Assembly: GCF_022352215.1 (NCBI RefSeq)
Contig: NZ_JAKRWF010000004.1
Span: 186,001 to 250,000 of the forward strand
Direction: 5' to 3'
DNA from: Flavihumibacter cheonanensis
GTDB lineage: Bacteria; Bacteroidota; Bacteroidia; Chitinophagales; Chitinophagaceae
DNA: 64,000 nucleotides
A model generated the notes under the pieces. The model was not told where the DNA came from. It worked only from the letters and a program-made list of their open reading frames with translations, and made no database searches. How positions within the stretch are numbered: the stretch's first letter is position 1; every line of letters begins with the position of its first letter. Shown here in pieces: positions 11,867 through 44,434 of the stretch. A program made the position numbers and the translations under genes.

Positions 11867-11883
11867 CCGAAAAAAATCAAACG

Positions 11884-13668
11884 ATGCGTATAAAAATAAT
11901 TAACTACAGTTTAGTTCTTGCCCTGATTTCAGTTATTGCGGCAGGATGTAGCAAGGTGTTGGATGAACAGCCCAGAGCGGGAATTGATCCATCCTATTTC
12001 CGCACCCCGGAAGGTATCCAGGGTGGTATTGCAGGTATTTATTCTTCCTTTCGCGGTCATTGGGGTACACAAATTTTCACACAGCTTTTTAATGCGGGTA
12101 GTGATGAATTTCAGAAAGGAGCGGCAGCGGACGTGCAGCATTGGTACACTTTCAATAATGCTCAGATCAGGACAGAAGCAAACAACTATGCCGGTTTCTG
12201 GAATTCCATGTTCATTAATATTAATACAGCGAATGGTGTGCTCGAATATGGGGCTGCAGCAAATATGCCTGAAGCAACCAAAACCCAGGTATTGGCACAG
12301 GCTAAATTTTTGCGTGCGTTCTGCTATTTCTACCTCGTAACTACTTTTGGAGATGTTCCATTGCACGTTGACTTTAATACAGAAGAATCCACCGCAGATT
12401 CACGTGCTCCGGAAGGAGAAGTATATGCACAGATCATCAAGGATTTAACGGAAGCTGCACAGGATCTTCCTAACCTCCCTGCGCCTGGAACAGGTAAACC
12501 AGCTACCAAGGCAACTGCTTTGTTTCTGCTTTCCAAAACCTATTTGTGGAGAGGCTGGTCAACTGCTGCACAGTCTGGTGATTTCAACAGTGCCTACACT
12601 ATTGCAAAAGACCTGATTGATAACAAGGCTCAGTACGGTTTAGACCTGTTACCTTATTTCCCGTCTGTGTTTAAGGAAGGAAATGAGTACAGTCCGGAAG
12701 TGCTGATGGTAATTGATCGTACCAAGGATCTTAAATTTGGCCAGAATTCAAATCCGGGAACTTTTGCCTCCAATCCTCAGGAGAACAAATCGAATTTCTT
12801 CTTTCGCCCCAACTATCCTGCGATTAATGCCAACTATCCGGCAGGTGGTGGAGCCAATCTTACAGTGCGTGATGTAAACAATGGAAGACCTTTCCAGCGG
12901 ATTCGTCCCAATACCCGGTATGTCATTGATGTGGCTTTCGCTAATCGGGAAACAGATTCCCGTTATGATGGCACCTTCCAAACAGTATGGTTATCGAATA
13001 GTTCTCCTATGTCTGCTGTGGGTTCACCTGGTGCTACTACTCCGCGTGGTCAATTGATCAATGGTGTCGATACATCCATCTGGATGGCTGACAGGGTGGT
13101 AACCAGCCAGGAAAGAGCTAACTTCAAAGGAGTAATTTTTGAACCGGAGCATCTGCCAGGCGCCACTGTTCGATACACTGCCAGTTATTATCCAAATCTT
13201 CGCAAATGGGATGATTCTACCAGGGCCGATATGAATGATTACTCGGATCGCCCATTCATACTCTTCCGTTTTGCAGAAGTATATCTGATAGCAGCTGAAG
13301 CAGCTATTCAGGGAGGTGCAACTCCACAGGATGCTGCGGCCTTAATAAATGTATTGAGGACAAGAGCCGCACTTAAACTGAATCAAACCCCGGCTGAATA
13401 CAATGCGGCAGTTGCAGCTCAACAGGTTAGCGCAGCTGACATGACGATTGATTTTCTCCTCGATGAACGCAGCCGGGAACTCTTTGGTGAATATACCAGG
13501 TGGTGGGATCTGGCACGTACGAGAAGACTTGTACAACGTGTAAAAGCCTACAACCCTGAAGGTGCAGATGGGGTACAGGAACATCATCGGTTGAGGCCAA
13601 TTCCCCAGGAGCAAATAGACCTGGTAACAGAAGGCCCGGCATTCCCGCAAAATCCTGGTTATGAATAA
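11884..13668 (+). CDS. SusD/RagB-family glycan-binding lipoprotein
   Basis: This 594-residue surface lipoprotein would bind the glycan and cap the SusC barrel encoded just upstream. The signal peptide ends in a lipobox (VIAAGC, Cys22). The N-terminal TPR-like part begins with YFRTPEGIQGGIAGIYSSF. The C-terminal RagB part contains FRFAEVYLIAAEAAI and the closing RPIPQEQIDL that mark the family. Spacing to susC is 17 bases, so they form one transcription unit. A strong hairpin follows the stop codon. The substrate is not evident from the sequence; surrounding enzymes suggest sulfated or fucosylated glycans. Confidence 0.95.
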   Translation: MRIKIINYSLVLALISVIAAGCSKVLDEQPRAGIDPSYFRTPEGIQGGIAGIYSSFRGHWGTQIFTQLFNAGSDEFQKGAAADVQHWYTFNNAQIRTEANNYAGFWNSMFININTANGVLEYGAAANMPEATKTQVLAQAKFLRAFCYFYLVTTFGDVPLHVDFNTEESTADSRAPEGEVYAQIIKDLTEAAQDLPNLPAPGTGKPATKATALFLLSKTYLWRGWSTAAQSGDFNSAYTIAKDLIDNKAQYGLDLLPYFPSVFKEGNEYSPEVLMVIDRTKDLKFGQNSNPGTFASNPQENKSNFFFRPNYPAINANYPAGGGANLTVRDVNNGRPFQRIRPNTRYVIDVAFANRETDSRYDGTFQTVWLSNSSPMSAVGSPGATTPRGQLINGVDTSIWMADRVVTSQERANFKGVIFEPEHLPGATVRYTASYYPNLRKWDDSTRADMNDYSDRPFILFRFAEVYLIAAEAAIQGGATPQDAAALINVLRTRAALKLNQTPAEYNAAVAAQQVSAADMTIDFLLDERSRELFGEYTRWWDLARTRRLVQRVKAYNPEGADGVQEHHRLRPIPQEQIDLVTEGPAFPQNPGYE

Positions 13669-24202: not shown

Positions 24203-25678
24203 CTAAAAATTCCACGAAGCCAAGGGACTATCCTGCCGTTCACGGACAACAATCGTATCAAAGAGTTGCAACAGTTCAGGGTGTTGAGAAGCGAGGTCTG
24301 TTGTTTCTGCCGGGTCTTTGGACAAATCAAACAATTGCCAGGGAGCTGCCGGATTATTTTTCAGACCGGTTTTCACTCCTTTCCAGTTCCCATATCGAAT
24401 AGCGCGTTGCCCGCCTTTTTCCGGGTACTCAAAATAGAGAAATTCATGTTGTTGTTGCTCCTTATTGTTGCCCAGCAGGGTAGGCAGAATGGAAATGCCA
24501 TCATTGGGCGGGGCTGTGGCTCCTGTAAGATCTGCGAGGGTAGCCATGAGGTCGTATTGAACCGATACCAGATCTGAAACGGCTCCAGCTTCAATTTTTC
24601 CCGGCCAGCGCGCAATGAATGGCATACGGATACCGCCTTCGTACAAATCCATCTTTAATCCCCTGAAGCCTGCTGCACTGTTGAAAAAGCGGGCATCAAC
24701 ACCTCCATTAAATGTAGCACCGTTATCACTACTGAAACAAATCAGAGTGTTTTCTTCAAGTCCTAGTTCTTTAATCAGTGACATTATTTTTCCTACCTGT
24801 TCATCCAGGTAAGAAATCATTCCGGCATAGGTGGAAAGTGGATATTTACTAGGAGTGTATCCTTGCTGTCCATAGTATGGTTGTTCTTCAAATTGTCCTT
24901 TATAAACATTTACCCATTTTTCCGGAACCTGCAGGGAGGCGTGAGGAATGGTGTAGGGGAGGTAGAGAAAAAATGGTCCGGATTTTTTTTCCCGAATGAA
25001 TTGTTCCGCTTTTTCAGTCATTTTATCGGGTGCATAATCTTTACCAATAAAGGTAGCAAATGCATCATCCGTTGCACTGTCAGGTGAAAGTTTACGATGT
25101 ACATAAAAATAGGGTTGATCCAGTGTGTCCCATTTCCCGTTTTCCCATAAGTGCGAGGGGTAATAATTGTGCGCCTGCTTCTGATCAAGGTATCCATAAC
25201 TGTAATCAAATCCGTGCAGGAGGGGATTTCCTTCTGTGTTGGCCATTCCTAGTCCCCATTTGCCGATAATAGCCGTACTGTATCCTTTTGTTTTTAAAAC
25301 ATCTGCAATTGTAACAGCTACTTTCGGAAGCGGAAATTGGCCGCGTTCAGCAGTATCCGCAAACCCACCTAGTTCATGATTGCCGCGAATGAAGGAATGT
25401 CCTCCATGTAAACCGGTCAATAACATGGCACGGGCTGGTGCACAAACCGGAGTAGACGTATAATGTTGGGTAAAGCGCATCCCTTCAGCAGCCATGCGGT
25501 CGAGATGCGGTGTTTTGATTTTTGTCTGCCCATAACTACCTAATTCTCCGTAACCCAGGTCATCTGCATAAATGTAAATGATGTTGGGGATAGCAGGTGT
25601 TTTGTTCGTAGGAACTTTGCAGGCTATAAATGCTGCTGTTAGGCAAAACAGAAAGAGTAGTTTGGCAGGCGATCTCAT
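24203..25678 (-). CDS. Sulfatase lipoprotein, Cys-type
   Basis: This 491-residue S1-type sulfatase carries a lipobox (AAFIAC, Cys20), so it should be membrane-anchored. The metal-binding start is YADDLGYGELGSYGQ (about residues 37-51). The modification motif is C79-A-P-A-R83, followed by AMLLTG, and a FSSDNGA stretch completes the metal site. It resembles the sulfatase encoded at 34286-35716 more than the other two, sharing the GQTKIKTP segment, so these are likely paralogues with related substrates. It heads a minus-strand unit with the Crp/Fnr and MFS genes and is divergent from the ECF sigma gene. Confidence 0.94.
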   Translation of the reverse strand: MRSPAKLLFLFCLTAAFIACKVPTNKTPAIPNIIYIYADDLGYGELGSYGQTKIKTPHLDRMAAEGMRFTQHYTSTPVCAPARAMLLTGLHGGHSFIRGNHELGGFADTAERGQFPLPKVAVTIADVLKTKGYSTAIIGKWGLGMANTEGNPLLHGFDYSYGYLDQKQAHNYYPSHLWENGKWDTLDQPYFYVHRKLSPDSATDDAFATFIGKDYAPDKMTEKAEQFIREKKSGPFFLYLPYTIPHASLQVPEKWVNVYKGQFEEQPYYGQQGYTPSKYPLSTYAGMISYLDEQVGKIMSLIKELGLEENTLICFSSDNGATFNGGVDARFFNSAAGFRGLKMDLYEGGIRMPFIARWPGKIEAGAVSDLVSVQYDLMATLADLTGATAPPNDGISILPTLLGNNKEQQQHEFLYFEYPEKGGQRAIRYGNWKGVKTGLKNNPAAPWQLFDLSKDPAETTDLASQHPELLQLFDTIVVRERQDSPLASWNF

Positions 25679-27698: not shown

Positions 27699-30600
27699 AT
27701 GAAAAAAACAAAGGACCGCACGTGCCCTTTCCTGCCAAGGCAAGTGCTAAAAACACTGCTGCTTATGAAGTTAACGATCGCATTTATGCTGGTTACCTGT
27801 TTACAGGTGTCTGCAAATTCCTATTCGCAGGACCGAATTTCTGTGAATTTTTCTCAAACTCGCCTCAAAAAAGCACTGAAAGAGATTGAACAGCAATCTT
27901 CTTACCGTTTTGTTTATAGCAGCGATAAGATCCCCGGTAATGTAACCGTTGATTTTAAAGGGGAGAATGTTCGTGTAGTCGAAATTTTAGGATCGATCCT
28001 TGCTGCCAATGAATTAAAATTTAAGGAGCTGCCGAACCGAATTATAGTAATTACTGCTTCCGGTTCAGAGGATCAGAATAAAACGATCACAGGTAAAGTA
28101 ACTGGCCCCAAAGGTGAACCCTTATCTGGAGCTACGGTTCAGGTAAAGGGAAGTTCTTTAGTTACCACTACGGATGATGCCGGTCAGTTTTCAATAGCAG
28201 TTCCTGACAATGATGCAATTCTAATGGTTTCTTATGTTGATATGCAAACTGCAGAAATCAGGGTTGGAGTAAATACAAGTCTTATTGTCCAGTTAAAAGC
28301 AGTGGATCAGTCGATGAATGAAGTGGTTGTTGTTGGATACGGTACTCAGAAAAAAGTAAGCATGACCAGTGCTGTTACCCAGGTTAAGGGTGAGGATCTG
28401 GTAAGAAGACCGGTTTCCAATTTGCAGCAGGCATTACAAGGGCAGGCTCCTGGACTAACGGTATTAGACCGGGGAGGAGAGCCGGGCCGATCTGCAGCCA
28501 CATTGCGCGTTAGAGGTATTACCACTTTCTCCGGAAATAGTTCCGGAAATAGTTCCCCGCTCATTATTGTAGATGGTGTGGAGCAACAGATGTTTAACCT
28601 GAATCCGGAAGATGTGGAAAGTATATCTGTATTGAAAGATGCATCCTCGACAGCCATTTATGGTTCACGTGCCGCAAATGGAGTGGTTTTGATTACAACC
28701 AAAAGAGCTAAAACCGGAAAAGTTCAGATCGCTTATAATGGATATTATGCCATTCAGAAATCTGTCAATCAGCCGGAAAATATGGAGCTGGAAAAATACA
28801 TGCGCTACCAGCAGCTTGCATATACCAACCAGGGACTTACAATTCCCGCTCGTTATACTGACGAAAGTATCGATACATGGGTAAATTCTTCAGACCGTTA
28901 TAAATATCCGGATGTAAATACCTGGTTCCAAACAGTGTTGAAAGCTGCACCACAGCATAGTCATAATGTTTCCTTCAGCGGGGGAAATGAATTTTCCCGT
29001 ACTCGCGTGAGTATGCGCTATATGGACCAGGGAGGAATTGCTCCGAATTATAGCGCATCCATTCGGGAGATCCGGATTAATAATGATATGCAACTCCACA
29101 AACGGCTGAAAATGAGTGCAGACTTTAACTATCGGTATAATATGTCCAGAAGTCCTTTTGCATCTGATGTGTTCAACCGTTTTTTTCATGGAACATTGTT
29201 TGCAGCTCCAAAGTATCCGGATGGCACATACGGGCTTAGTCAACAGGGATTTAATCCGCTCCTGCTTGCGGAAAAATCAGGTAATAATAATATAGCCAGT
29301 AACTATTTTTACGCTTCTGGTAAAATGGAATACCAGTTGTTGAAAGGACTAACACTAAGTGCCCAGGTTTCTGCAGTTATGGATTTTACAGAGCAGAAAG
29401 CTTACCGGAATGCTGTAAATAATTTTGATTCGCTTACCGGAAGGCGATATCAGGTAGCAAATAACGCACTGACTGAAACACGTAATCGATATAGGGAAAT
29501 TACAACCAACTATCTGGCGAATTATGCTACTAGTTTTGGTCGGCATGAATTGAAAGCGCTTGTTGGATTTTCAGAATTGTATAATAATGGCTATAACTTG
29601 TCGGCTTATCGGGAACGGTTTTACAATAATGACATCCAATCAATAGGACAGGGGGCCAATGATCCAACCAAGGATAATTCCGGAAATGAATATAAATTCG
29701 GATTGCGCTCTTATTTTGCCCGACTTAATTATTCTTTTGACCAGAAATATTTACTTGAAGTTAACGGCAGGTATGATGGTTCATCCAGGTTTACCGGCAA
29801 CAAACAGTATAGTTTTTTCCCATCATTTTCTGCAGCCTGGAGAATCACAGAAGAGGATTTTTTTGATAATCTGAATTCACCATTTAATGAACTGAAGATT
29901 CGGGGGTCATGGGGGCAAACGGGTAATCAAACCGTTCCTCTCTACAGCTATTTTGCGTCATTGACACAGGGATCTTACACTTTTGGAGGCGTGGCTGCTC
30001 CAACTTTCTCCCAAACTGTTCTTGCTGATCCAAGTATATCCTGGGAAACCAATACACAAACTGATATTGGAATGGAAGGAAGCTTACTGGGCTATAAACT
30101 TTCTTTTTCAGTTGATTATTATAGAAAGAGAACCAGTGGAATCTTGCTGGCATTACCATTACCTGTAGTAACCGGTTTTACCTCTTCCAATCAGAATGCA
30201 GGTGTAATTGATAATAAAGGTTGGGAGATTTCACTGGGATATCGTAACAATGAACATAAACTTACCTATTCCATCGGTGCTAATGTTGCCATCAACCGAA
30301 ACGAAGTAATTGATTTGAAAGGTGGTGGTCCGTTTATCAACAGTTCCTATGATTTAGATCCCCGCTATATTGTAAAAGAAGGATTACCCTACAATTCGCA
30401 TTGGGGTTATAAAACGAATGGCTATTTTCAAAGCCAGCAGGAAATTGACAATTATCCAACGATTGCCCCCAATACAAAACCAGGTGATGTTAAGTATGTT
30501 GACCTGAATAAGGATGGAAGAATCAATGCTAACGACTGGACAGTAATTGGAAACCCGTTTCCCAAATATACATTTGGTGCAACTGCTGAACTGGGGTATC

Positions 30601-31037
30601 GGAATTTCTCATTGAACGTGCTTTTTCAGGGGGCTGCAGATGTTGATACAAGATTATCAGGAGCTTTGTCGGAGTATGGAATATTTGAAGGGTTTACACA
30701 TAAAATTGTAACGGATAATTACTGGACACCGGAACGTCCAAATGCGCGCTTCCCCTTACCCCGAAAAAGTGATCAACGAAATGTAAATACATCAGACAGA
30801 TTAATAATTGACGGTTCCTATCTGCGACTCAAAAACCTGCAGTTAAACTATGCTGTACCTGCTTCGTTTGTAAAAAGAGCAGGAATCAATTCGGCAAGAT
30901 TTTATTTGTCTGGTACAAATTTGCTAACATTTTCAAAGTTGAACGAATGGAACCTTGATCCCGAAGCGGAATCAGGAAGAGGAATCTATTATCCCCAAAC
31001 CAGTTTGTACACCTTAGGCCTAAACCTGAATTTTTAA
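27699..31037 (+). CDS. SusC/RagA-type TonB-linked transporter with STN signalling domain
   Basis: The 1112-residue protein starts with a leader common in Chitinophagaceae (KTLLLMKLTIAFML), then an STN (secretin/TonB N-terminal) domain (about residues 48-110) that contacts FecR. A carboxypeptidase-like domain (TGKVTGPKGEPLSGATV), TonB-box region (NEVVVVGYGTQKKVSM), plug (DASSTAIYGSRAANGVVLIT) and barrel ending NLNF follow. Together with the sigma/anti-sigma pair this makes a substrate-induced import system. A 12-base tandem duplication in the plug yields the run GNSSGNSS before PLIIVDG. The susD gene follows after 19 bases. Confidence 0.95.
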   Translation: MKKTKDRTCPFLPRQVLKTLLLMKLTIAFMLVTCLQVSANSYSQDRISVNFSQTRLKKALKEIEQQSSYRFVYSSDKIPGNVTVDFKGENVRVVEILGSILAANELKFKELPNRIIVITASGSEDQNKTITGKVTGPKGEPLSGATVQVKGSSLVTTTDDAGQFSIAVPDNDAILMVSYVDMQTAEIRVGVNTSLIVQLKAVDQSMNEVVVVGYGTQKKVSMTSAVTQVKGEDLVRRPVSNLQQALQGQAPGLTVLDRGGEPGRSAATLRVRGITTFSGNSSGNSSPLIIVDGVEQQMFNLNPEDVESISVLKDASSTAIYGSRAANGVVLITTKRAKTGKVQIAYNGYYAIQKSVNQPENMELEKYMRYQQLAYTNQGLTIPARYTDESIDTWVNSSDRYKYPDVNTWFQTVLKAAPQHSHNVSFSGGNEFSRTRVSMRYMDQGGIAPNYSASIREIRINNDMQLHKRLKMSADFNYRYNMSRSPFASDVFNRFFHGTLFAAPKYPDGTYGLSQQGFNPLLLAEKSGNNNIASNYFYASGKMEYQLLKGLTLSAQVSAVMDFTEQKAYRNAVNNFDSLTGRRYQVANNALTETRNRYREITTNYLANYATSFGRHELKALVGFSELYNNGYNLSAYRERFYNNDIQSIGQGANDPTKDNSGNEYKFGLRSYFARLNYSFDQKYLLEVNGRYDGSSRFTGNKQYSFFPSFSAAWRITEEDFFDNLNSPFNELKIRGSWGQTGNQTVPLYSYFASLTQGSYTFGGVAAPTFSQTVLADPSISWETNTQTDIGMEGSLLGYKLSFSVDYYRKRTSGILLALPLPVVTGFTSSNQNAGVIDNKGWEISLGYRNNEHKLTYSIGANVAINRNEVIDLKGGGPFINSSYDLDPRYIVKEGLPYNSHWGYKTNGYFQSQQEIDNYPTIAPNTKPGDVKYVDLNKDGRINANDWTVIGNPFPKYTFGATAELGYRNFSLNVLFQGAADVDTRLSGALSEYGIFEGFTHKIVTDNYWTPERPNARFPLPRKSDQRNVNTSDRLIIDGSYLRLKNLQLNYAVPASFVKRAGINSARFYLSGTNLLTFSKLNEWNLDPEAESGRGIYYPQTSLYTLGLNLNF
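28530..28553 (+). repeat. In-frame 12-bp tandem duplication in susC plug region
   Basis: The unit TCCGGAAATAGT occurs twice in a row and encodes SGNS twice, lengthening the loop before PLIIVDG by four residues. Being exact at the nucleotide level, it looks recent. It keeps the frame. Confidence 0.8.
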
Positions 31038-31056
31038 TTCGTCAACTTGACTATTT

Positions 31057-32643
31057 ATGAGACAAGCTAAAAATTTTATACTGCTATCCCTTTTTCTATT
31101 TTCAGGAATAATAAGTTCTTGCAAGAAGGATATTCTTGAAACAATTCCAAACGATCGGGTGTCTTCAACCATTTACTGGCGAACCGAATCAGATGCTATT
31201 TACGGCGTAAATTCAGTGTATTCTGCCCTTGATGCTGTGAATCTTTTTGTACTTGATGGTGTATCTGATATTGGACATACCAATACAACATTTACAGTTG
31301 AGTTCAATATTGAGAACGGCACCTATGACGCCTCCCACTCCCGCATTCAGACAGAGTGGCAAAATGGTTACAGAGGTATATTTCTGGCGAACGATGTATT
31401 GGCAAATATTGATAAAGTAACAACTGCTAATATTGCATTGCTTGACCGGCTAAAAGCGGAAACTAGGGTGTTGCGTGCCTACTACTACCTCAAACTTACG
31501 GGTTTATACGGCGATGTTCCTTTGATTACTACTCCAATAACAGCAACTGAAGGTTTGTCAATTACACGTACTTCACAGGTCGAGATATACGAATTTATAT
31601 CTGCAGAATTAACAGCTGCAACGGCTTCACTGCCATCCACCTATCCAACAGCAGATAAAGGACGTATTACTAAGGGTGCAGCGCTTGCTTTAAAAGCAAG
31701 AGCTGATTTATGGTCGGGTAATTACAGCCAGGCGGCCGAAGCTGCCAAAGCTGTGATGGATTTGAATGTATATGGTCTGATAGATGAGTATGGCAAATTG
31801 TTTACGTATGCTATGGAGAATAGTAAGGAGGTTGTTCTGGATAAACAATTCCTGGCAGGCACACTGACTCATAATTCATTTGCCTACATGGGCCCCTACA
31901 GCCAGCGTAACAGTTCCAGCAATTTTGTGCCAACAAAAGCACTTGCTGATTTATACACCATGAAAAATGGTAAGGATATCAACGATCCAACTTCCGGCTT
32001 TGATCCGATGCAACCTTTCCTAAACCGTGATCCCAGAATGCGTTACACTATGTACCTCGATGGTGATCCTTTGCCTAGTGGAATTTTATTCAAACCGGTT
32101 CCCGGACAGGGTGGAGCAGATGAAGTAGGTAAGACACAATACAATACAAGTACTGGATATTCATTGAAAAAATATGTAGTTGCAGAAGATCTTCAAACGC
32201 CTGGTGCAAGCGGACTTAATTTTATCCTGCTTCGATATGCGGAAGTGCTATTGACATATGCAGAAGCAAAAATTGAATTGAACCAACTGGATGCCTCTGT
32301 TTATGATGCAATTAATGCTATCAGAACAAGACCAGATGTTGGACTTCCCGCATTAGAACCTGGTTTAACGCAGGAGGAATTAAGGCAGGTCGTTCGTCGG
32401 GAACGTACTATTGAACTTGCTTTTGAAGGTTGGAGATTATTCGATATAAGGCGCTGGAAAATTGGTGAGCAGGTAATGCGGGGCCCGGTATATGGAATTA
32501 CCTATTTCGAAAATGGGAGCCCGGTTACTATTGAAGTTCCAAGTGTAATCCGGGTATTTGATCCGGCCAAACATTATGTATGGCCAATACCCCAAAAAGA
32601 AACCGAACTCAATCCTGCATTGGGGCAAAATCCTGGCTGGTAA
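31057..32643 (+). CDS. SusD/RagB-family lipoprotein
   Basis: This 528-residue lipoprotein has a lipobox ending at Cys22 (IISSC) followed by KKDILE. SusD family marks include the N-terminal STIYWRTESDAIYGVNSVY, RVLRAYYYLKLTGLYGDVPL, and the C-terminal ILLRYAEVLLTYAEAKIEL, RTIELAFEGWRLFDIRRW and WPIPQKE. It would bind glycan at the cell surface and cap the STN-type SusC protein encoded 19 bases upstream. A strong terminator follows. Confidence 0.95.
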   Translation: MRQAKNFILLSLFLFSGIISSCKKDILETIPNDRVSSTIYWRTESDAIYGVNSVYSALDAVNLFVLDGVSDIGHTNTTFTVEFNIENGTYDASHSRIQTEWQNGYRGIFLANDVLANIDKVTTANIALLDRLKAETRVLRAYYYLKLTGLYGDVPLITTPITATEGLSITRTSQVEIYEFISAELTAATASLPSTYPTADKGRITKGAALALKARADLWSGNYSQAAEAAKAVMDLNVYGLIDEYGKLFTYAMENSKEVVLDKQFLAGTLTHNSFAYMGPYSQRNSSSNFVPTKALADLYTMKNGKDINDPTSGFDPMQPFLNRDPRMRYTMYLDGDPLPSGILFKPVPGQGGADEVGKTQYNTSTGYSLKKYVVAEDLQTPGASGLNFILLRYAEVLLTYAEAKIELNQLDASVYDAINAIRTRPDVGLPALEPGLTQEELRQVVRRERTIELAFEGWRLFDIRRWKIGEQVMRGPVYGITYFENGSPVTIEVPSVIRVFDPAKHYVWPIPQKETELNPALGQNPGW

Positions 32644-32716: not shown

Positions 32717-34186
32717 CTATTTCATCACTCCGGCAGGACGCACTTCAGTACCGGTTGATTGGGTTAAGCCATCACCCAATGTTCGGCGATAGTAGTCAGC
32801 TCTTTGATTTAAAGTAGTAACCATTTCGGGATACATATCCTGCACATCACGGTCTTCTCCCGGATCAGTCCACAAATCATAGAGCGCAAGTTTTACGGTG
32901 TCTGTTCCATGCTTGCCTGGGAATCCATCTTTGTTCATTTTGGCAGGCGGACCATAGGTTTGAGATGTTGCCGGGAATACCAATTTAAAACGCTCATTGC
33001 GGATGGCTTTCAGGTTGTTTTTATCATAGTAATATACAAACTCTTTTCGGCCGCTTTCCTTCGAATTGCCCATCAGCATATCCGTAAGATTGATGCCATC
33101 AATTTTTTGTGCAGGAGAAGGAGCGTTGCAAAGCTGAACAAGCGTTGGCAGTATATCCATGGTGGTAGAAAGCTGGTTGTTAACCAGACCCTCCTGTAAA
33201 CGACCTTTCCAACTCATGATACAGGGAACTTTTACACCACCTTCCCAGGCGGTACCTTTTCCCTCCCGTAATCCGGTGGTATTACCAGCGTGATTGCCGA
33301 AAGTAAGCCAGGGGCCATTGTCGCTCGTGAAGATGACCAGCGTATTGTTCAGCAACTTATTTTCCTCGAGTGTTTTTATGATAGCACCTACCGACCAGTC
33401 CACTTCTTCCATTACATCACCAAATAGGCCAGCTTTACTTTTTCCCCTAAATGCCTCACTAGCTGCCAGCGGAACATGGACCATTGGATGAGCGAGGTAG
33501 AGAAAAAATGGCGACTTCCGGTTTGCCTGAATAAATTGTGTTGCTCTTTCGGTAAACTTCCGGGTCAACATTGCCTGGTCTTCAAGAGTTCGGATATAAG
33601 AACTGGGTTTATTTCCTTCCAGCAAGGGTAAGATAGGATAGGTAAAACGATAACTGGTGGTGTCTGTCCACGGTGTACCATCGTAATAGACAGGCCACAT
33701 ATCATTGGAGTAGGGAATACCAAAGTATTCATCAAATCCATGCTGAAGGGGCAGGTAGGGTTCCTTGTGACCAAGATGCCATTTTCCTACCATGCCTGTT
33801 TTGTAACCCGATTTTTTCAACAGTTCCGGAATGGTTTCTTCACTGGTGTTTAACCCGAATTTTGCATTGTGATCAATTGCACCGGATATGCCGATACGGG
33901 TAGGATAACATCCCGTAAGCAATGCACTGCGGGAAGCAGTGCAAACTGCCTGCGCTGCATAAAAATTTGTGAAGCGAATGCCGTTGTGGGCCAACTTGTC
34001 GATATTCGGCGTTTGGTATGGACCACCTCCATAACAAACAGGGTCTCCATAACCCATGTCATCCATGAAGATAAGTACAATGTTTGGTTTTACCGGATCT
34101 GGAGGAGCGTCAGAAAGCTCTTTTTTCGGGTTAAATGATACCAATATGGCGCAACCGAAAAGTAATGAAAAATTTAATTTTCGCAT
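32717..34186 (-). CDS. Secreted sulfatase, Cys-type
   Basis: This 489-residue S1-type sulfatase has a hydrophobic leader (residues 1 to about 20) without a clear lipobox. The metal-binding start is FMDDMGYGDPVCYGG (about residues 40-54). The modification motif is C82-T-A-S-R86 with SALLTG, GKWHLGH lies near 133-139, and FTSDNGPW gives the later metal ligands. The proline-to-alanine form CTASR is within the accepted pattern C-x-[PA]-x-R. It is divergent from the next sulfatase with a 99-base AT-rich gap, and convergent with susD. It resembles arylsulfatase A-like members acting on glycans; the sulfate position is not known. Confidence 0.93.
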   Translation of the reverse strand: MRKLNFSLLFGCAILVSFNPKKELSDAPPDPVKPNIVLIFMDDMGYGDPVCYGGGPYQTPNIDKLAHNGIRFTNFYAAQAVCTASRSALLTGCYPTRIGISGAIDHNAKFGLNTSEETIPELLKKSGYKTGMVGKWHLGHKEPYLPLQHGFDEYFGIPYSNDMWPVYYDGTPWTDTTSYRFTYPILPLLEGNKPSSYIRTLEDQAMLTRKFTERATQFIQANRKSPFFLYLAHPMVHVPLAASEAFRGKSKAGLFGDVMEEVDWSVGAIIKTLEENKLLNNTLVIFTSDNGPWLTFGNHAGNTTGLREGKGTAWEGGVKVPCIMSWKGRLQEGLVNNQLSTTMDILPTLVQLCNAPSPAQKIDGINLTDMLMGNSKESGRKEFVYYYDKNNLKAIRNERFKLVFPATSQTYGPPAKMNKDGFPGKHGTDTVKLALYDLWTDPGEDRDVQDMYPEMVTTLNQRADYYRRTLGDGLTQSTGTEVRPAGVMK

Positions 34187-34285: not shown

Positions 34286-35716
34286 ATGAAAAAAATATCA
34301 CGTAGATGCACATTCGAAAAATATTTATGGATGATACTTTATTTGATTTCTTCTGCAGCAATTGCCCAGCAAAAAAATCGGCCGCCCAATATCATTTATA
34401 TCCTGGCCGATGATCTTGGATATGGCGACCTGGGTTGCTATGGACAAACAAAAATCAAAACGCCTAATATCGACCAATTGGCGGCGAGAGGAAGAAAATT
34501 CACAAGTTTCTATGCAGGCAGTACTGTTTGTGCTCCATCCAGAGCAGCACTTATGACAGGTTTGCATACCGGTCATGTTTCGGTTAGGGGTAATGGTGAG
34601 TTCCCGCTTCCGAAAGAAGAAAAAATACTTCCGGAGTATCTGAAAGAAAAAGGATACGTCAATGCAATGATGGGCAAATGGGGATTAGGACTTTCTGCTA
34701 CCAGTGGCTCCCCTGAAATACGCGGATGGGATTATTTTTCCGGCCATGTACATCATGTGGAAGGTCACTACCAGCACCCGGATTCTGCCTGGCAAATCCA
34801 GGGAAATCAATTGCATAAAATTCGTATTCCCGGCGGCCAATATGCCAATGAATGGTTCACGAATGAAGCATTGAATTTTATCCGGAATGAAAAGGATCGA
34901 CCTTTTTTTCTGTATCTCTCCTTTACCCTTCCACATGCTGAACTGGTGGTGCCGGATCAATTCATACAACCCTATCTGAATGCTAACGGGGAGAGTCTTT
35001 TTGCACCTGAGACAGCACACGCACCCGGACAACATTATGGTCCGCAGCGATTTCCAAAAGCCGCTTATGCAGCCATGATTACTCAAATGGATACCTATGT
35101 TGGAAATGTAATGAATGAAATCAGAAAACTTGCACTAGAGGAGAATACCATCATCATATTTACTAGCGATAATGGCACCCACCAGGAAGGTGGAAGAAAA
35201 CGAGCTGATGCCATGGACTATTTTAAAAGTAGTGGTCCATTTAAGGGCATAAAAAGAGATTTGTATGAAGGAGGTATCAGGGTGCCCTTTATTGTTCAAT
35301 GGCCGGGTAAAATTGAAGCAGGTTCCAGTTCCGATCTGCCGGCTGCTAATTGGGATATCGTTTCCACTTTCTGTTCATTGACTGGAATGCGCGCGCCGGA
35401 AACAGATGGAATTTCTATTGCTCCGGTTTTGTTGAACAGAACTAAAAAATCACTCCTGAAAAAAATGCAAAACAGGCCCTTTTATTGGGAGTTCTATGAA
35501 CAGGGGTATAAGCAGGCTGTACGAAAGGGAAACTGGAAAGCTATCCGGTATTATCAGGGAGTACATCCGGTTCGGACTGAACTATACAATCTGGAAACAG
35601 ACCCGGGTGAAAACCATGATGTATCATCTACCCATCAGGATTTGGTAAAAGAAATGGAAACTCAATTGGAAAAGCTTCGGAAACCTTCTGATAATCCTGC
35701 TTTTCAGATAAAATAA
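34286..35716 (+). CDS. Secreted sulfatase, Cys-type
   Basis: The 476-residue protein has a basic start and a hydrophobic segment ending AIAQ (about residues 16-28). The metal-binding start is LADDLGYGDLGCYGQ (about 40-54). The modification motif is C82-A-P-S-R86 followed by AALMTG. GKWGLG replaces the more usual GKWHLG, as in the sulfatase encoded at 24203-25678, which is its closest relative in the window. FTSDNGTHQEGG gives the later metal ligands. It is the last gene of the carbohydrate region before a change in gene content. Confidence 0.93.
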   Translation: MKKISRRCTFEKYLWMILYLISSAAIAQQKNRPPNIIYILADDLGYGDLGCYGQTKIKTPNIDQLAARGRKFTSFYAGSTVCAPSRAALMTGLHTGHVSVRGNGEFPLPKEEKILPEYLKEKGYVNAMMGKWGLGLSATSGSPEIRGWDYFSGHVHHVEGHYQHPDSAWQIQGNQLHKIRIPGGQYANEWFTNEALNFIRNEKDRPFFLYLSFTLPHAELVVPDQFIQPYLNANGESLFAPETAHAPGQHYGPQRFPKAAYAAMITQMDTYVGNVMNEIRKLALEENTIIIFTSDNGTHQEGGRKRADAMDYFKSSGPFKGIKRDLYEGGIRVPFIVQWPGKIEAGSSSDLPAANWDIVSTFCSLTGMRAPETDGISIAPVLLNRTKKSLLKKMQNRPFYWEFYEQGYKQAVRKGNWKAIRYYQGVHPVRTELYNLETDPGENHDVSSTHQDLVKEMETQLEKLRKPSDNPAFQIK

Positions 35717-35769: not shown

Positions 35770-36219
35770 TTATTTCACGTTAGCACTCACGATTTTTGCC
35801 AGATCAAACATAGAGATCTGATTTTTGCCGCCGAATAGCGTTTTCAGTTTAGCATCCGCATTAATCATGCGTTTGTTGGTGCTGTCCTGAAGTTTGTTCT
35901 TTTTGATGTAATCCCAAATCTTCTTGGTGATGTCCGGGCGGGAAGCTGGCTTGGCGCCAATTACATCAGCCAGTGCTGCACTCGGAGTTAAAGGTGCCAT
36001 AAAGGCTGCATTCGGAGTACGCTTTTTAGCGGCTTTTTTGGGAGCAGCTTTTTTAGCAGCTTTCTTTGGAGCAGCTTTTTTAGCAGGAGCAGCTTTCTTT
36101 GCAGCTTTCTTTGCAGGAGCAGCTTTCTTCGCAGCAGCTTTTTTAGGAGCAGCTTTTTTAGCGGCAGCTTTCTTTGGTGCGGCCTTTTTTGCGGCGGCTT
36201 TTTTGGTTGCTTTGGCCAT
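35770..36219 (-). CDS. SWIB domain protein with histone-H1-like Lys/Ala/Pro tail
   Basis: The 149-residue protein has two parts. Residues 1 to about 68 are nearly all Lys, Ala and Pro in repeats such as KKAAPKKAAAKKAAP, which should be disordered, strongly basic and able to bind DNA. Residues about 70-149 match the SWIB/MDM2 fold (PDITKKIWDYIKKNKLQD and MINADAKLKTLFGG). In bacteria SWIB domains are known from chlamydial proteins, including one fused to topoisomerase, and similar tailed proteins occur in Bacteroidota. A nucleoid role is likely but not shown here. The coding DNA of the tail is itself repetitive (GCAGCTTTTTTAGC-like units), so tail length could vary between strains. A terminator lies just downstream. 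Confidence 0.9.
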   Translation of the reverse strand: MAKATKKAAAKKAAPKKAAAKKAAPKKAAAKKAAPAKKAAKKAAPAKKAAPKKAAKKAAPKKAAKKRTPNAAFMAPLTPSAALADVIGAKPASRPDITKKIWDYIKKNKLQDSTNKRMINADAKLKTLFGGKNQISMFDLAKIVSANVK

Positions 36220-39357: not shown

Positions 39358-39571
39358 TTACAGTTGATGTTACGGTAATATTCTGGTAATGATTCCTTAA
39401 TGCCGGTTTTTCAATTTTGAAATGCTTTGATTTTCAATCTTATATCATCAGCATTAATGGCTTTGTTGCTATCCTGATAACGCCTGTTAACGGTCGGTTG
39501 CTGAATTGTTCACGCGCTAAAAATTGGAACACCAACCGCATGTGCAAGATTTGGGCCTGAAATAAACGCGT
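39358..39571. promoter_or_regulatory. Leader/promoter region of the TonB receptor-phytase run
   Basis: This 214-base gap must carry the promoter of the three-gene run. No full TAnnTTTG box, hairpin or convincing palindrome was found. Confidence 0.25.
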
Positions 39572-42301
39572 ATGAAAAAAGCGGGAATACTTAGTTTTTT
39601 ACTCTTTCTGACCAGTCTGATCTGGGCACAGCCTTCCAATGAATATGTACTCCTGAAAGGGGTAGTGGACGACGCGCAGAACAAATCAAAACTCGGTGGA
39701 GCTTCGATCCAGATCCGGGGAGCAAACAATGGAACGATTGCAGACCTGAATGGTGCGTTCACGCTGTATTCCTTACCCGGACAAATCCAGCTCGAAATTT
39801 CATATCTCGGGTACCGCGACACATTGCTGCAATTGAACCTGGAACCCGGCAGTATTCGCACTCTGCAGATTCACCTTACCAGCAGCACTCCCGAACTGAA
39901 CAGTGTAGTGATCTCCGGTTATCTGCAGGGACAGGCGAAAGCCTTGAATCAGCAGAAAAACGCCGATAATATAAAGAATATAATTTCTTCCGATCAGATC
40001 GGGCGTTTCCCGGATCCCAATGCCGCAGAAGCTTTGCAACGGGTACCCGGTGTCAATATTGAAAGAGACCAAGGGGAAGGCAGATATGTCCTGGTACGTG
40101 GCCTCGCCCCACAGTTTACCAACATTAATATCAATGGCGAACAGATTCCGAGTCCGGAAGCCGATGTGCGATTTGTTGCCCTTGATGCGATACCAAGTGA
40201 TCAGCTTGCCTCTATTGAAGTGAGCAAAACCCTGAGTCCGGATATGGACGGTGATGCGGTAGGAGGTTCTGTTAACCTGATCACCCGTATGGCACAATCC
40301 AAAACACCCCATATCAGTGGTTCATTGGCTGGTGGATACAATACACTAATGCAAAAACCCAACTGGCAGGGACAGTTGCAGTTTGATCAGCGTTTCGGAA
40401 AAAAAGAAAAACTGGGACTTTTAATAAATAGTAATTATTACCTTAATCAGCTAGGATCAGACAACTGGGAACAGGCACCCAACGATAATGAACTCGAACT
40501 CCGGGATTATGAATTGACCCGTACAAGGGCAGGATTAAGTGGTACTGTTGATTACCGGTTCAACAACCGGCACGAAGTATATGTGCGGGGAATTTACAGC
40601 CGGTTTACTGATCGCGAATGGCGTCGGCGCTATGTATTTATTCCTGAAGATGATGAGATCGAAAAACTGACCAAGGATCGTTTCGAATCTCAGAGTATTA
40701 CGGCAATCAATATTGGTGGTAAGCATAAGTTTACCGGATTTTATCTCAATTATGAAGGACAGTATTCACGTGGAATTCAAAATACACCCTACGATCATGA
40801 AGCAGCTTTTATTGCTGGATTACCCTCTTCCTTTTCAGCAGCAAATGGAAAATTCCCGATACTGTCAGCCGATGGCTTTACCAACAGTAGCAATTATGAA
40901 TTTGACGAAGTTTCATATGGAGGCAGTTATGCAAAAGACCAGAATATAACAGGGAAATTTGAAATTGGGATTCCTTACAAAACAGGTAGCTCCAATGGTA
41001 TTTTAAAATTTGGAGCCAAAGCCAGGTTCAAGCAAAAATCCTATACCATTACCAGCGATATCTATGGAACTGATGCTGAACTTCCAACTGCAGACGCCTT
41101 TGATGAGGATCCTATTAAATCCGAGTTTCTGAAAGGTCGGTTTGATATGGGTCGCCCGATTCAAATGGGTTTATTCAATCGTTTTTTTAATGCCAATCCA
41201 GGCTTGTTTGAATTGGATGTAGAATCCAAATCCATAGACGAAGCACTCGAGTCCTTTGATGCTACTGAAAATGTGTATGCAGGATTTATTATGAGCAGAC
41301 ACCAGTTCAGCAAGTTAACCTTTACCGTAGGGCTGCGTTTTGAACATACCGATGTACAATATGATTCCAAAGATGTGATCATTGATGCACAAGGTGATCT
41401 GGAAGCCATTCGTCCGGTTTCAGGTACCAGTTCCTACAGTTTTCTTTTGCCACAGATTCAGGCAAAATATGAGCTATCCAGGTATACGAACTTGCGTGCA
41501 TCCATCGCCAGTTCCTATGCCCGGCCTAATTTTGGAGAAATCATTCCGGCCCAGGAAATTAATCGGGAAGACCGGGTTGCCAACCTCGGAAATCCTGCTT
41601 TAAAACCAACCAGCGCGCTGAACCTGGACCTGATGCTCGAACATTATTTCGGAAATGTGGGCATTGCCTCAGCAGGTATATTTTATAAAAAGCTGGATGA
41701 TTTTATCTATCGCCGGGTTATTTTCAACGGAACCTACCCATTAACCGGAACACCCATTGTCCCAAGAATTGATATCATCCAGGCACAGAATGGAAATACC
41801 GCTAACCTGGTAGGACTTGAATTTGCTTTCCAGCGGAAACTGGATTTCTTACCCGGATTCTTCAGTAAACTCAATCTCTACACCAATTACACCTATACCC
41901 ATTCAAGAGCTACCATTCAAAGCCGCGAAGCGGATGAAACCAAACCGGATGCAACTGAGAAGTTTCGGCTACCCGGGCAGGCAACTCATGTTGGTAACCT
42001 GGCACTGGCCTATGAAAATAAAAAACTGGTGGTGCGCCTGGCAGCCAATTTCAATGGCGAATACCTGACAGAAGTAGGTGGTAATGCAAGCGAAGACCTG
42101 TATATCAAAAGCCGTATGCAATTGGATTTCAATGCCAGTTATGCGATCAACAATCGATTCAGGTTCTTTGCCGAGGCTCTTAATCTAACCAATCAGCCCT
42201 TTGAATCATATTATGGATCAAAAGCGGTTATGGCTCAGCGTGAGTTCTATCGCTGGTGGATGCGATTCGGCGTAAAATTTGACCTGGGACTATCTAAATA
42301 A
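39572..42301 (+). CDS. TonB-dependent outer-membrane receptor
   Basis: The 909-residue protein has a signal peptide (ends LIWAQ), a carboxypeptidase-regulatory-like domain (about 25-105), and a plug domain with the marks QIGRFPDPNAAEALQRVPG and YVLVRGLAPQFTNININGEQ. This is the pattern of the TonB-receptor group whose plug begins with 'D.IGr.PD.n.aeal.riPGV'. The barrel ends with FYRWWMRFGVKFDLGLSK. It lacks a SusD partner. Instead an acidic lipoprotein gene follows after 15 bases, then a phytase gene after nine more. It probably imports a phytate-derived or metal-bound compound; this is inferred from neighbours. Confidence 0.93.
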   Translation: MKKAGILSFLLFLTSLIWAQPSNEYVLLKGVVDDAQNKSKLGGASIQIRGANNGTIADLNGAFTLYSLPGQIQLEISYLGYRDTLLQLNLEPGSIRTLQIHLTSSTPELNSVVISGYLQGQAKALNQQKNADNIKNIISSDQIGRFPDPNAAEALQRVPGVNIERDQGEGRYVLVRGLAPQFTNININGEQIPSPEADVRFVALDAIPSDQLASIEVSKTLSPDMDGDAVGGSVNLITRMAQSKTPHISGSLAGGYNTLMQKPNWQGQLQFDQRFGKKEKLGLLINSNYYLNQLGSDNWEQAPNDNELELRDYELTRTRAGLSGTVDYRFNNRHEVYVRGIYSRFTDREWRRRYVFIPEDDEIEKLTKDRFESQSITAINIGGKHKFTGFYLNYEGQYSRGIQNTPYDHEAAFIAGLPSSFSAANGKFPILSADGFTNSSNYEFDEVSYGGSYAKDQNITGKFEIGIPYKTGSSNGILKFGAKARFKQKSYTITSDIYGTDAELPTADAFDEDPIKSEFLKGRFDMGRPIQMGLFNRFFNANPGLFELDVESKSIDEALESFDATENVYAGFIMSRHQFSKLTFTVGLRFEHTDVQYDSKDVIIDAQGDLEAIRPVSGTSSYSFLLPQIQAKYELSRYTNLRASIASSYARPNFGEIIPAQEINREDRVANLGNPALKPTSALNLDLMLEHYFGNVGIASAGIFYKKLDDFIYRRVIFNGTYPLTGTPIVPRIDIIQAQNGNTANLVGLEFAFQRKLDFLPGFFSKLNLYTNYTYTHSRATIQSREADETKPDATEKFRLPGQATHVGNLALAYENKKLVVRLAANFNGEYLTEVGGNASEDLYIKSRMQLDFNASYAINNRFRFFAEALNLTNQPFESYYGSKAVMAQREFYRWWMRFGVKFDLGLSK

Positions 42302-42316
42302 TCAAAAAATTTTGGA

Positions 42317-43345
42317 ATGAAAAATAGTATGCTACTTCTTGGCAGCCTCCTGCTGTTATTCATAGCAGGGTGTGATAAAAAAAATACCGACCTGGTGATG
42401 CCATTGAAACCTGGCGACTTTCCGCAAGTGATCAAATTTTCTGATGAAGTGGGAGGCGAATTGGAAAACACAGATGAATTCAGTATTGCCTTAACACTAA
42501 TTGACAGAGTAGACCCTTCCGGCGAGGAACCAGGGGGAACTATTGTTCCTCTTACAGAAGATGTTCGGGTCAACTTCACCATCAGTGATGTAAATGGTAT
42601 TGCAGCTGTCGATTCTTACATAAAAGGAGGCAAAGCTTTATATGAAATTGATGATTGCACCAGTTCAGAGGATGAAGGTATTGACCTGGATTTTCAATTT
42701 GATCCCGTTACTGGAATTGGATCTGTTGTATTTCCAGAAGAGGTAGAAGAAATTGAATTGGTATTTGAGGTGGACGAAACCTACCTGGATGATGCGGAAC
42801 TAAATGAAGAAGAGCGCTCCATTGAATTCAACCTGCTGTCAGTTGATGCTGCATCGGAAAATGTAGTCGTAAATACCGGAATGGTATTTACCTATGAAGT
42901 GCTGGACGATGAGGGAGTTGATGGTGCCTGGGACCTCGATCCTGAGAATCCTGAACAGTTTGCTGCTTTTAAAAATTTATTCGGCCTGGTCAATGAAGAT
43001 ATCGCCAACCTTGATGCAGCCGATATAGAGAAAATAGAAATTGAATTTGAACTCGAAGAAATAAAAGTAGTGGTTGAATTAAAAGAAACTGAACTGATTG
43101 ATGAATGTGGCGAGCAGGAAGAAGTTAATATAGAAATCGAACTGGAACTGGAAATTGAAGAGTTGACTCGTCTTCTGGCAGAAGGCGAAATAGAAGCTAT
43201 CGGGGAACTGGAGCAGGAAGACGGATCTTTACTGGAATATACAGTAAAAGGCAATTTTTGGATTGAAGGAAACCAGCTTCAATTGGAACTGGAAAATGAA
43301 CTGGAGGATGAAACGGTTTCAGCCATTCTTCGATTAACCCGTTAA
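42317..43345 (+). CDS. Unknown highly acidic lipoprotein
   Basis: I do not recognise a family. The 342-residue product has a lipobox (FIAGC, Cys19) followed by DKKNTD. By hand count about 91 of 342 residues are Asp or Glu, against few Lys/Arg, with alternating stretches such as EIEFELEE, IEIELELEIEE and ELENELEDE. These look like beta strands with acidic faces more than like a disordered tail. It lies between a TonB receptor gene and a phytase gene with gaps of 15 and 9 bases, so it is surely part of that operon. It could bind calcium or metal ions needed by the phytase, or take the place of a SusD-type lid. Both ideas are inference. The codon use is ordinary for the window. Confidence 0.85.
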   Translation: MKNSMLLLGSLLLLFIAGCDKKNTDLVMPLKPGDFPQVIKFSDEVGGELENTDEFSIALTLIDRVDPSGEEPGGTIVPLTEDVRVNFTISDVNGIAAVDSYIKGGKALYEIDDCTSSEDEGIDLDFQFDPVTGIGSVVFPEEVEEIELVFEVDETYLDDAELNEEERSIEFNLLSVDAASENVVVNTGMVFTYEVLDDEGVDGAWDLDPENPEQFAAFKNLFGLVNEDIANLDAADIEKIEIEFELEEIKVVVELKETELIDECGEQEEVNIEIELELEIEELTRLLAEGEIEAIGELEQEDGSLLEYTVKGNFWIEGNQLQLELENELEDETVSAILRLTR

Positions 43346-43354
43346 ACTAATTTA

Positions 43355-44434
43355 ATGAAAGCTCAAATAAGTTATATAGTAATCCTTGCCTGTTTTTTTG
43401 CTGGTTGTATCAATAACAGTTCATCTACTCCGGTAGCTGTTACTAAAATGGAACTGAGTCCCAGTTTTATTACCGATACACTTGAACATGATACAGATGA
43501 TCCAGCTATCTGGATTCATCCGCAGGATCCCTCCAAATCACTGGTTATTGGTACCGATAAGGATTTAAATGGTGGTCTTTTTGTTTTTGACCTAAAGGGT
43601 AAATTAGACAGCAGCCGATCCGTAAAAGGATTAAAGCGACCTAATAATGTAGATATTGAATATGGCCTGGCAATTGGTGATACGCTGGTTGACATTGCTG
43701 TTGCTACAGAACGTCTGACACATAAATTGCGCATTTTCCGATTACCGGATATGAAACCAATGGATAATGGTGGTATTGAAGTTTTTTTGGGAGAAACTGG
43801 TACGGAATACCGCGACCTTATGGGAATTGCCCTGTATAAAAATAAAGCGGGTGCTATATATGCTATAGTTGGGAGAAAAAATGGTCCGACTGATAGCACC
43901 TATCTCTGGCAATATGAATTGAAGGGAACAAGAGACAGCCTGGTGCAGGTTAACTTAGTTAGAAAATTTGGTGCTTACAGCGGCCTTCATGAAATTGAGT
44001 CCATTGCTGTTGACGATCAGTTAGGATATATCTATTACTCTGATGAAGGTGTGGGTATTCGGAAATATTATGCTGATCCTGAAAATGGAAACCAGGAACT
44101 CGCTCTATTTGGTACTGGTAGCTTTAAAGAAGATAATGAAGGTATATCCATCTATACCCTTACTGACAGTACAGGATTTATCCTGGTATCCGATCAGCAG
44201 GATCATAGTTTTCATATTTATCCCAGAGAGGGGACAACCGAAAACCCTCATACTCATCCATTGCTAAGAAAACAATATGTGGCAGCCCGCGAAAGTGATG
44301 GCAGTGAAATTATCTCCATTCCGCTGCTTCCGGATTTTCCATTTGGGCTCTTTGTTGCTATGAGTGATGATAAAACTTTTCACTTTTACCGTGCAGACCA
44401 GGTAATTGGTGACAGCTTGCTGAAAAAAAATTAA
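43355..44434 (+). CDS. Beta-propeller phytase (3-phytase), lipoprotein
   Basis: The 359-residue protein would release phosphate from myo-inositol hexakisphosphate in a calcium-dependent way. It has a lipobox ending Cys18 (FFAGC). Two family motifs are plain: DTDDPAIW (about residues 47-54) and NNVDIEYG (about 98-105). A third stretch, YYSDEGVGI, matches the conserved calcium-site blade, and DNEGISIY and SDQQDHSFHIY follow in later blades. Length is normal for the family. It is the third gene of a run with a TonB receptor and an acidic lipoprotein. Its stop codon shares the bases TTAA with the stop codon of the convergent AraC gene. Confidence 0.94.
   Translation: MKAQISYIVILACFFAGCINNSSSTPVAVTKMELSPSFITDTLEHDTDDPAIWIHPQDPSKSLVIGTDKDLNGGLFVFDLKGKLDSSRSVKGLKRPNNVDIEYGLAIGDTLVDIAVATERLTHKLRIFRLPDMKPMDNGGIEVFLGETGTEYRDLMGIALYKNKAGAIYAIVGRKNGPTDSTYLWQYELKGTRDSLVQVNLVRKFGAYSGLHEIESIAVDDQLGYIYYSDEGVGIRKYYADPENGNQELALFGTGSFKEDNEGISIYTLTDSTGFILVSDQQDHSFHIYPREGTTENPHTHPLLRKQYVAARESDGSEIISIPLLPDFPFGLFVAMSDDKTFHFYRADQVIGDSLLKKN

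Follow-up and report, generated by a model that had tools for sequence, protein, structure and literature searches.

Background

A TonB-dependent receptor with a partner lipoprotein is in itself a known arrangement, one such partner being the mostly helical SusD. Much of the organic phosphorus of plants and soils is stored as phytate (inositol hexaphosphate), and to our knowledge the route by which this compound crosses the Gram-negative outer membrane is not settled. In Bacteroides the vitamin B12 receptor BtuB is capped by BtuG (PMC10404256). In Flavobacterium johnsoniae, Fjoh_1368 and Fjoh_1367 are a TonB receptor and a PF02333 phytase induced by phosphate depletion, and the same source describes FI and FII, lipoproteins clustered with receptors and said to resemble polygalacturonases (PMC8115612). 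Here we analyze an operon of Flavihumibacter cheonanensis (Bacteroidota, Chitinophagaceae) in which a strongly acidic lipoprotein is encoded between a TonB-dependent receptor and a beta-propeller phytase. It lies in a stretch of 64,000 nucleotides (the window; contig NZ_JAKRWF010000004.1 of assembly GCF_022352215.1, positions 186,001 to 250,000), and all coordinates below are those of the window. With a probability of about 0.5, we propose that this lipoprotein is a dedicated accessory of a phytate-importing receptor, exposed at the cell surface and binding Ca2+, which captures calcium-phytate, caps the receptor, or does both.

Results

The operon and its acidic lipoprotein

The three genes run head to tail on the + strand with intergenic gaps of 15 and 9 bases, and their open reading frames (ORFs) are confirmed at the places given in an earlier note on this DNA:

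39572..42301, + strand: TonB-dependent receptor, 909 residues, with CarbopepD_reg_2 domain, plug and barrel; of the TIGR01782 and not the SusC type, and placed in the acidic-partner group of the receptor tree
42317..43345, + strand: acidic lipoprotein, 342 residues; lipidated Cys19 predicted from the lipobox IAGC
42419..42916, + strand: N-terminal domain of the lipoprotein, residues 35-200; predicted Calx-beta fold with candidate Ca2+ ligands Glu50, Asp197, Asp198 and Glu199
42914..43342, + strand: C-terminal domain of the lipoprotein, residues 200-342; predicted lipocalin-like beta-barrel
43355..44434, + strand: beta-propeller phytase lipoprotein, 359 residues; PF02333, E 8.7e-40

The receptor scores 510 bits against TIGR01782 (cut-off 310) and, with 74 bits, falls below the cut-off of 368 for the SusC profile TIGR04056; among the window ORFs no susD-like one adjoins it, in agreement with the earlier description of a TonB receptor without susD. 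The assignment of the third gene to the beta-propeller phytases likewise stands, at 137 bits against PF02333 (cut-off 21). As for the lipoprotein, a hand count of about 27 percent Asp+Glu proves correct, the computed value for the full-length protein being 26.6%; across a set of 40 window ORFs that do not overlap and have 100 residues or more, the lipoprotein included, the mean is 11.1% (standard deviation 3.3) and the second highest value 14.6%. The predicted mature chain has 28.1% Asp+Glu and a net charge of -74. In the alignment of 26 members (A2; one incomplete; L079 was omitted, its lipoprotein being identical to that of L078, and L074 represents a contig also held as L003/L050) the mature chains have 22-34% Asp+Glu and a median net charge of -59, and 35 columns are acidic in at least 90% of the members. 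The protein has no Pfam or NCBIfam family above cut-off. That it is a low-complexity or spurious ORF is ruled out by the 33-56% identity to it in the 25 other alignment rows, with the same gene order.

Conservation of the gene order

An alignment of three lipoprotein sequences, with neither neighbor included, was used to search a collection of genomes (84,980 species by its description) and recovered 25 loci. Their hosts are Chitinophagaceae, Sphingobacteriaceae, Hymenobacteraceae, a member of the Rhodocytophagaceae, Flavobacteriales and one bin labelled Thalassovita, and the genera with the triad include Mucilaginibacter, Pedobacter, Rufibacter and Terrimonas. A receptor lies upstream in all 25 loci and a phytase downstream in 24, the contig of the remaining one ending inside the lipoprotein; the order receptor, lipoprotein, phytase is thus found in 24/24 contigs long enough to show it. 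A chance neighbor of the phytase is ruled out by this recurring order, and homologs residing mostly away from phytase genes, which the earlier note had named as a possible refutation, were not seen. Starting instead from the receptor, at least 10 of 394 family genomes have one at E <= 1e-150, accompanied in each case by adjacent lipoprotein and phytase genes; this count is a lower bound, as two first-look candidates per genome were scored, and it overlaps the set of 25 loci. Few genomes have the lipoprotein (3 of 147 in the family; in a phylum-wide profile search scoring up to five first-look candidates per genome, hence with misses possible, 1 of 395, its own genome), and the phytase is commoner (26 of 147 and 51 of 395, respectively).

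Some loci depart in detail from this picture. The triad of L072 is on a contig binned as Thalassovita (Pseudomonadota); transfer is possible, and mis-binning is likely because its proteins group among Bacteroidota in the trees. In L063 a metallophosphatase (PF00149, 1.9e-19) is inserted between lipoprotein and phytase. Such an enzyme stands beside the phytase both in this acidic-type operon (L063:7029-8102) and in a receptor-only one (L102:365-1387), perhaps for stepwise dephosphorylation. In L055 and L056 (G106, G086) the phytase appears split into two overlapping frames, perhaps reflecting decayed genes or sequencing errors.

Three set-ups upstream of the phytase

The 26 phytase-bearing family genomes (25 fetched regions and the window) comprise 3 with receptor, acidic lipoprotein and phytase, 14 with receptor and phytase directly adjacent, 7 with a beta-helix lipoprotein between the two, and 2 with no receptor in the fetched stretch. 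Among 28 further phylum loci (best matches from the 51 phytase-bearing genomes, with flanks of 1.5 kb), the phytase is directly preceded by a receptor in 21 and by a beta-helix lipoprotein in 5, one has a receptor followed by a metallophosphatase, and one has none of these. The name beta-helix is used because of a weak PF13229 match of one such protein (E 0.011, below cut-off) together with a reading of the sequence by eye. These lipoproteins, of 417-533 residues, replace the acidic one in L033, L034, L035, L036, L037, L041 and L045 (also L093-L095, L103 and L109), and wherever a receptor was seen they stand beside a different receptor group. They may correspond to FI and FII of F. johnsoniae, to which we liken them by description and not by sequence, and like these may resemble polygalacturonases. 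The fetched stretch of L032 has a phytase but no TonB receptor, and an 859-residue protein resembling dipeptidyl-peptidases by eye is encoded upstream.

The lipoprotein follows the receptor

The three set-ups coincide with the three starred groups in a tree of 43 receptors, requiring the minimum of 2 changes of set-up, whereas the phytase tree of the same 43 loci requires 5. Forcing the 24 acidic-type phytases together in the latter costs 64 log-likelihood units (approximately unbiased test, p-AU 0.0006). A larger tree of 66 phytases requires 9 changes among the four labels; here the same constraint costs 44 units (p-AU 0.0494), or 53 units (p-AU 0.00877; 22 rows) without L078, a long branch, and L072, both of which were left out after the tree had been seen. 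These are quick trees, with support from the Shimodaira-Hasegawa-like approximate likelihood ratio test (SH-aLRT). Receptors of the phylum-wide loci are truncated by the flanks and are absent from the receptor tree; L055, L064, L074, L077 and L079 were left out of the trees, L051, L056, L083, L086, L089, L098, L099 and L106 fall outside the phytase set, and L102, with its metallophosphatase between receptor and phytase, carries the receptor-phytase label. In a mirror-tree comparison of 24 triads the distance matrices correlate for every pair of proteins, with rho 0.837 (partial 0.494) for lipoprotein and receptor and 0.808 (partial 0.355) for lipoprotein and phytase. By the trees, the lipoprotein follows the receptor better than the phytase; the matrices separate the two only a little.

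Two predicted beta domains

The N-terminal domain is predicted to adopt the Calx-beta sandwich, and the structures matched are CBD1 and CBD2 of Na+/Ca2+ exchangers (PDB 2dpk, 3gin, 3us9, 3e9t). The earlier note had named a fold match to a known unrelated family among the findings that would refute it; the fold found is of a calcium-binding type, though some Calx-beta domains bind none. The Ca2+ ligands D498-D500 of NCX1 CBD1 have counterparts in Asp197 (26/26), Asp198 (26/26) and Glu199 (25/26), an equivalence derived from the alignment end points (199/500, 200/501, 201/502) and column counts, and the invariant Glu50 (26/26) would fall on E385 if the alignment runs ungapped from the pairing of residues 35/370. 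These acidic residues are thus candidate ligands of a Ca2+ site.

The C-terminal domain corresponds to a lipocalin-type barrel, which VIA-align returned, and its barrel strands carry many alternating carboxylates. Foldseek with this domain returned nothing at E <= 0.001. Weak contacts with the Lipocalin_4 profile were obtained for 12 of 25 C-terminal domains (alignment A3, 25 rows; best E 0.025), with none above the Pfam cut-off among the relatives and no match for the window protein; the N-terminal alignment A4 has 21 rows. Profile searches against PDB sequences, with the full-length protein or either domain as query, gave chance-level matches only.

Membrane side

A surface-export signal of Bacteroidetes includes acidic residues just after the lipidated cysteine (PMC5080379). 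At positions +2 to +7 past this cysteine the 26 lipoproteins have a mean of 2.85 acidic residues against 0.375 in 24 partner phytases, and every lipoprotein (26/26) has 1-4 of them, although the exact C-X-K-(D/E)2 order described in that source is not kept. Because of this difference between the N-termini, the lipoprotein is predicted to lie outside and the phytase probably inside.

Upstream region and other genes of the window

A candidate control region precedes the receptor gene:

39454..39514, + strand: putative regulatory segment that stops 57 bases short of the receptor gene start; it opens with a TTAATGGC element (39454-39461), followed by five similar units

The five units, read by eye, begin at 39463, 39474, 39484, 39495 and 39506 (steps of 11, 10, 11 and 11). 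PHO boxes typically have periods near 11, and our guess is that the stretch could be a PHO-box-type array placing the operon under phosphate control, in line with the phosphate-depletion response of the F. johnsoniae receptor-phytase pair (PMC8115612). The word TTGTTN[AC]C, picked once these sequences had been inspected, is present in 20 of 43 upstream regions of phytase operons against 6 of 93 controls, with 14/24, 2/12 and 4/7 in the three set-ups, and repeat spacings of 21, 22 and 32 are enriched in the phytase-operon regions. The array reading is nevertheless weak, because a spacing of 11 is not above control in these regions, spacings of 7 and 14 are also high, and the word counts are uneven over the set-ups. 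When two genomes were scanned for the upstream element, allowing up to 2 mismatches, a relative showed it at its phytase operon and at one more site, and the Flavihumibacter genome had no match, against 1 in the backward control; a wider phosphate regulon is thus unsupported.

Elsewhere in the window we noticed, by eye, sulfatase-like genes at 274-1629, 24203-25678, 32717-34186 and 34286-35716 and two susC/susD-like pairs at 8696-13668 and 27699-32643, a combination which suggests the use of sulfated glycans. A Histone-H1-like protein with N-terminal Ala-Lys-Pro repeats is encoded at 35770-36219 (also by eye).

Discussion

Function of the lipoprotein

In the mechanism we propose, the receptor would import phytate, probably as its calcium complex. 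The lipoprotein, anchored to the outside of the cell by its N-terminal lipid, would bind Ca2+ through the Calx-beta-like domain at the joint of its two domains, and the lipocalin-like barrel with its glutamate-rich surface would cover the mouth of the receptor or lie next to it. In this place the lipoprotein may capture or position calcium-phytate and act as a cap, in the manner of SusD or BtuG with their own cargoes, and phytate drawn in would then be cut by the phytase of the adjacent gene, most likely on the periplasmic side. That the protein acts as a lid on the receptor, as SusD does, had been one suggestion of the earlier note: it gains indirectly from the protein's tendency to follow the receptor over the phytase and from the somewhat export-signal-like N-terminus, but its fold is not that of SusD. 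Of this picture, the conserved operon, the link to a single receptor group, the folds as predicted and the invariant acidic residues come from computation, and surface exposure, binding of Ca2+, contact with the receptor, phytate as the cargo and regulation by phosphate limitation are inferred.

Several observations weigh against this proposal. Direct pairs of receptor and phytase account for 14 of the 26 phytase-bearing family genomes, so phytate use does not in general depend on the lipoprotein. The receptors of the other two set-ups all come from the window's own family, partner type and sampling being partly confounded in this way, and the mirror-tree difference between receptor and phytase is small and weakly discriminating. 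The lipoprotein has no match to the Pfam Calx-beta family (PF03160) by hmmscan, a family unmatched anywhere in its own genome, and hhalign of the N-terminal domain against a set of Calx-beta sequences gave a probability near 0; because the sequence profile is not matched, we call the domain Calx-beta-like and do not file it as a member of PF03160. In an alignment by eye the equivalents of D421, D446/D447 and E451 are partly or not conserved (Asp91 16/26, Asp153 18/26, position 164 mostly non-acidic), and the invariant Arg167 (26/26) probably occupies the place of E454. The Calx-beta fold is itself no proof of calcium binding, since CALX CBD2, which is among the structure matches, binds none (PMC4746289). 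The resemblance to the export signal is loose, with C-D-K-K-N-T-D in the window protein against an optimal C-X-K-(D/E)2. Finally, a strongly acidic lid is odd for a strongly anionic cargo unless calcium bridges the two.

The main idea of the earlier note was that the acidic protein concentrates calcium for the phytase. Such a store would keep Ca2+ close to an enzyme that needs it for folding and catalysis. Beta-propeller phytases are calcium enzymes, and the lipoprotein lies beside one in all loci long enough to tell. The calcium part of the idea has gained from the strong negative charge and from a fold shared with Ca2+ sensors in which some ligand positions are invariant. The part assigning this calcium to the phytase is weakened because related phytases, including sister ones, occur in operons without the lipoprotein, and because the N-termini suggest opposite membrane faces; moreover, for the same loci the phytase tree requires more changes of partner type than the receptor tree (5 against 2). 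We thus regard such a calcium store as improbable. Should the protein act at the surface without capping the receptor, it might be an adhesin or solubilizer that brings cells to their substrate by binding organic particles or insoluble calcium- or metal-phytate. Calx-beta domains do occur in adhesive proteins, and both the alternating carboxylates of the barrel strands and the putative surface exposure are consistent with this role, which we consider rather unlikely in view of the strict tie to one receptor group and of a single compact copy where a repetitive adhesin would be expected.

The charge (-74 in the window protein, a median of -59 over the members, with the many conserved acidic columns) could also be taken to mean that the lipoprotein strips phytate of metal, another suggestion of the earlier note; Ca2+, Fe3+ or Zn2+ would be removed at the surface, leaving the bare ligand free to enter the receptor. 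Phytate, however, outcompetes simple carboxylates for many metals, and no sign of a turnover or release mechanism is apparent, making this very unlikely. We give equally little credence to an assembly helper that folds or places the receptor or phytase without handling substrate: the gene does stand between the two others and is co-inherited with the receptor, but a calcium-type fold with invariant acidic loops is unexpected in a mere placeholder, and other receptor-phytase pairs exist without any such protein.

A bolder form of the proposed receptor accessory can also be envisaged, in which Ca2+ locks the joint between the Calx-beta-like and lipocalin-like domains, as CBD1 rigidifies the exchanger tandem; the ion closing the lid would then come from calcium-phytate itself, and recognition of the cargo would be coupled to TonB-driven import. 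We hold this elaboration to be speculative and of low probability; if true, it would define a new class of receptor partners convergent with SusD and BtuG, with a beta-helix lipoprotein in its place in sister operons.

A lipoprotein family strictly tied to one phytase-linked receptor group and having the fold of a Ca2+ sensor offers a concrete handle on phytate import. It leads to the predictions that calcium takes part in the recognition of the cargo and that related phytases of Bacteroidota are preceded by at least three receptor set-ups (with the acidic Calx-beta-like lipoprotein, with a beta-helix lipoprotein, and with neither). Among the listed matches of open-access literature on beta-propeller phytases and TonB receptors, mostly titles and starts of abstracts, we found no description of the lipoprotein, and a text search for Calx-beta together with phytase gave no match; its combination of domains is undescribed as far as these searches reach, as the earlier note had supposed for its role.

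Comparison with known systems

Relative to typical Calx-beta domains, the N-terminal domain has an extra loop with a conserved E-I-D-D-C motif, and its invariant arginine replaces E454 in the alignment by eye, much as K585 does in CBD2; the lipoprotein further differs in being secreted, in having a second domain that is not Calx-beta and in leaving sequence profiles and Pfam unmatched. The C-terminal domain shares with the lipocalin-like proteins of Bacteroidota (Lipocalin_4; PDB 4gzv, 3hty, 4qrl) a small barrel in which a first strand is followed by a helix and a strand meander, and departs from them in its carboxylate-rich strands and sub-cut-off profile match.

At the level of the operon, Fjoh_1368 and Fjoh_1367 have consecutive locus tags (PMC8115612), hence no gene between them, unlike the present receptor and phytase. 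SusD and PusD likewise stand next to a TonB receptor, and a comparable role in capture or as a lid is supposed here; the lipoprotein is mostly beta, however, and its receptor is not a SusC. That it is a SusD homolog is ruled out by the unmatched SusD sequence profile and by this mostly beta fold. BtuG is encoded with its TonB receptor (PMC10404256) just as the lipoprotein is, the capping being only supposed for the latter. BtuG is a seven-bladed propeller, whereas in the present operon the propeller is the enzyme and the candidate lid would be built from a Calx-beta-like and a lipocalin-like domain.
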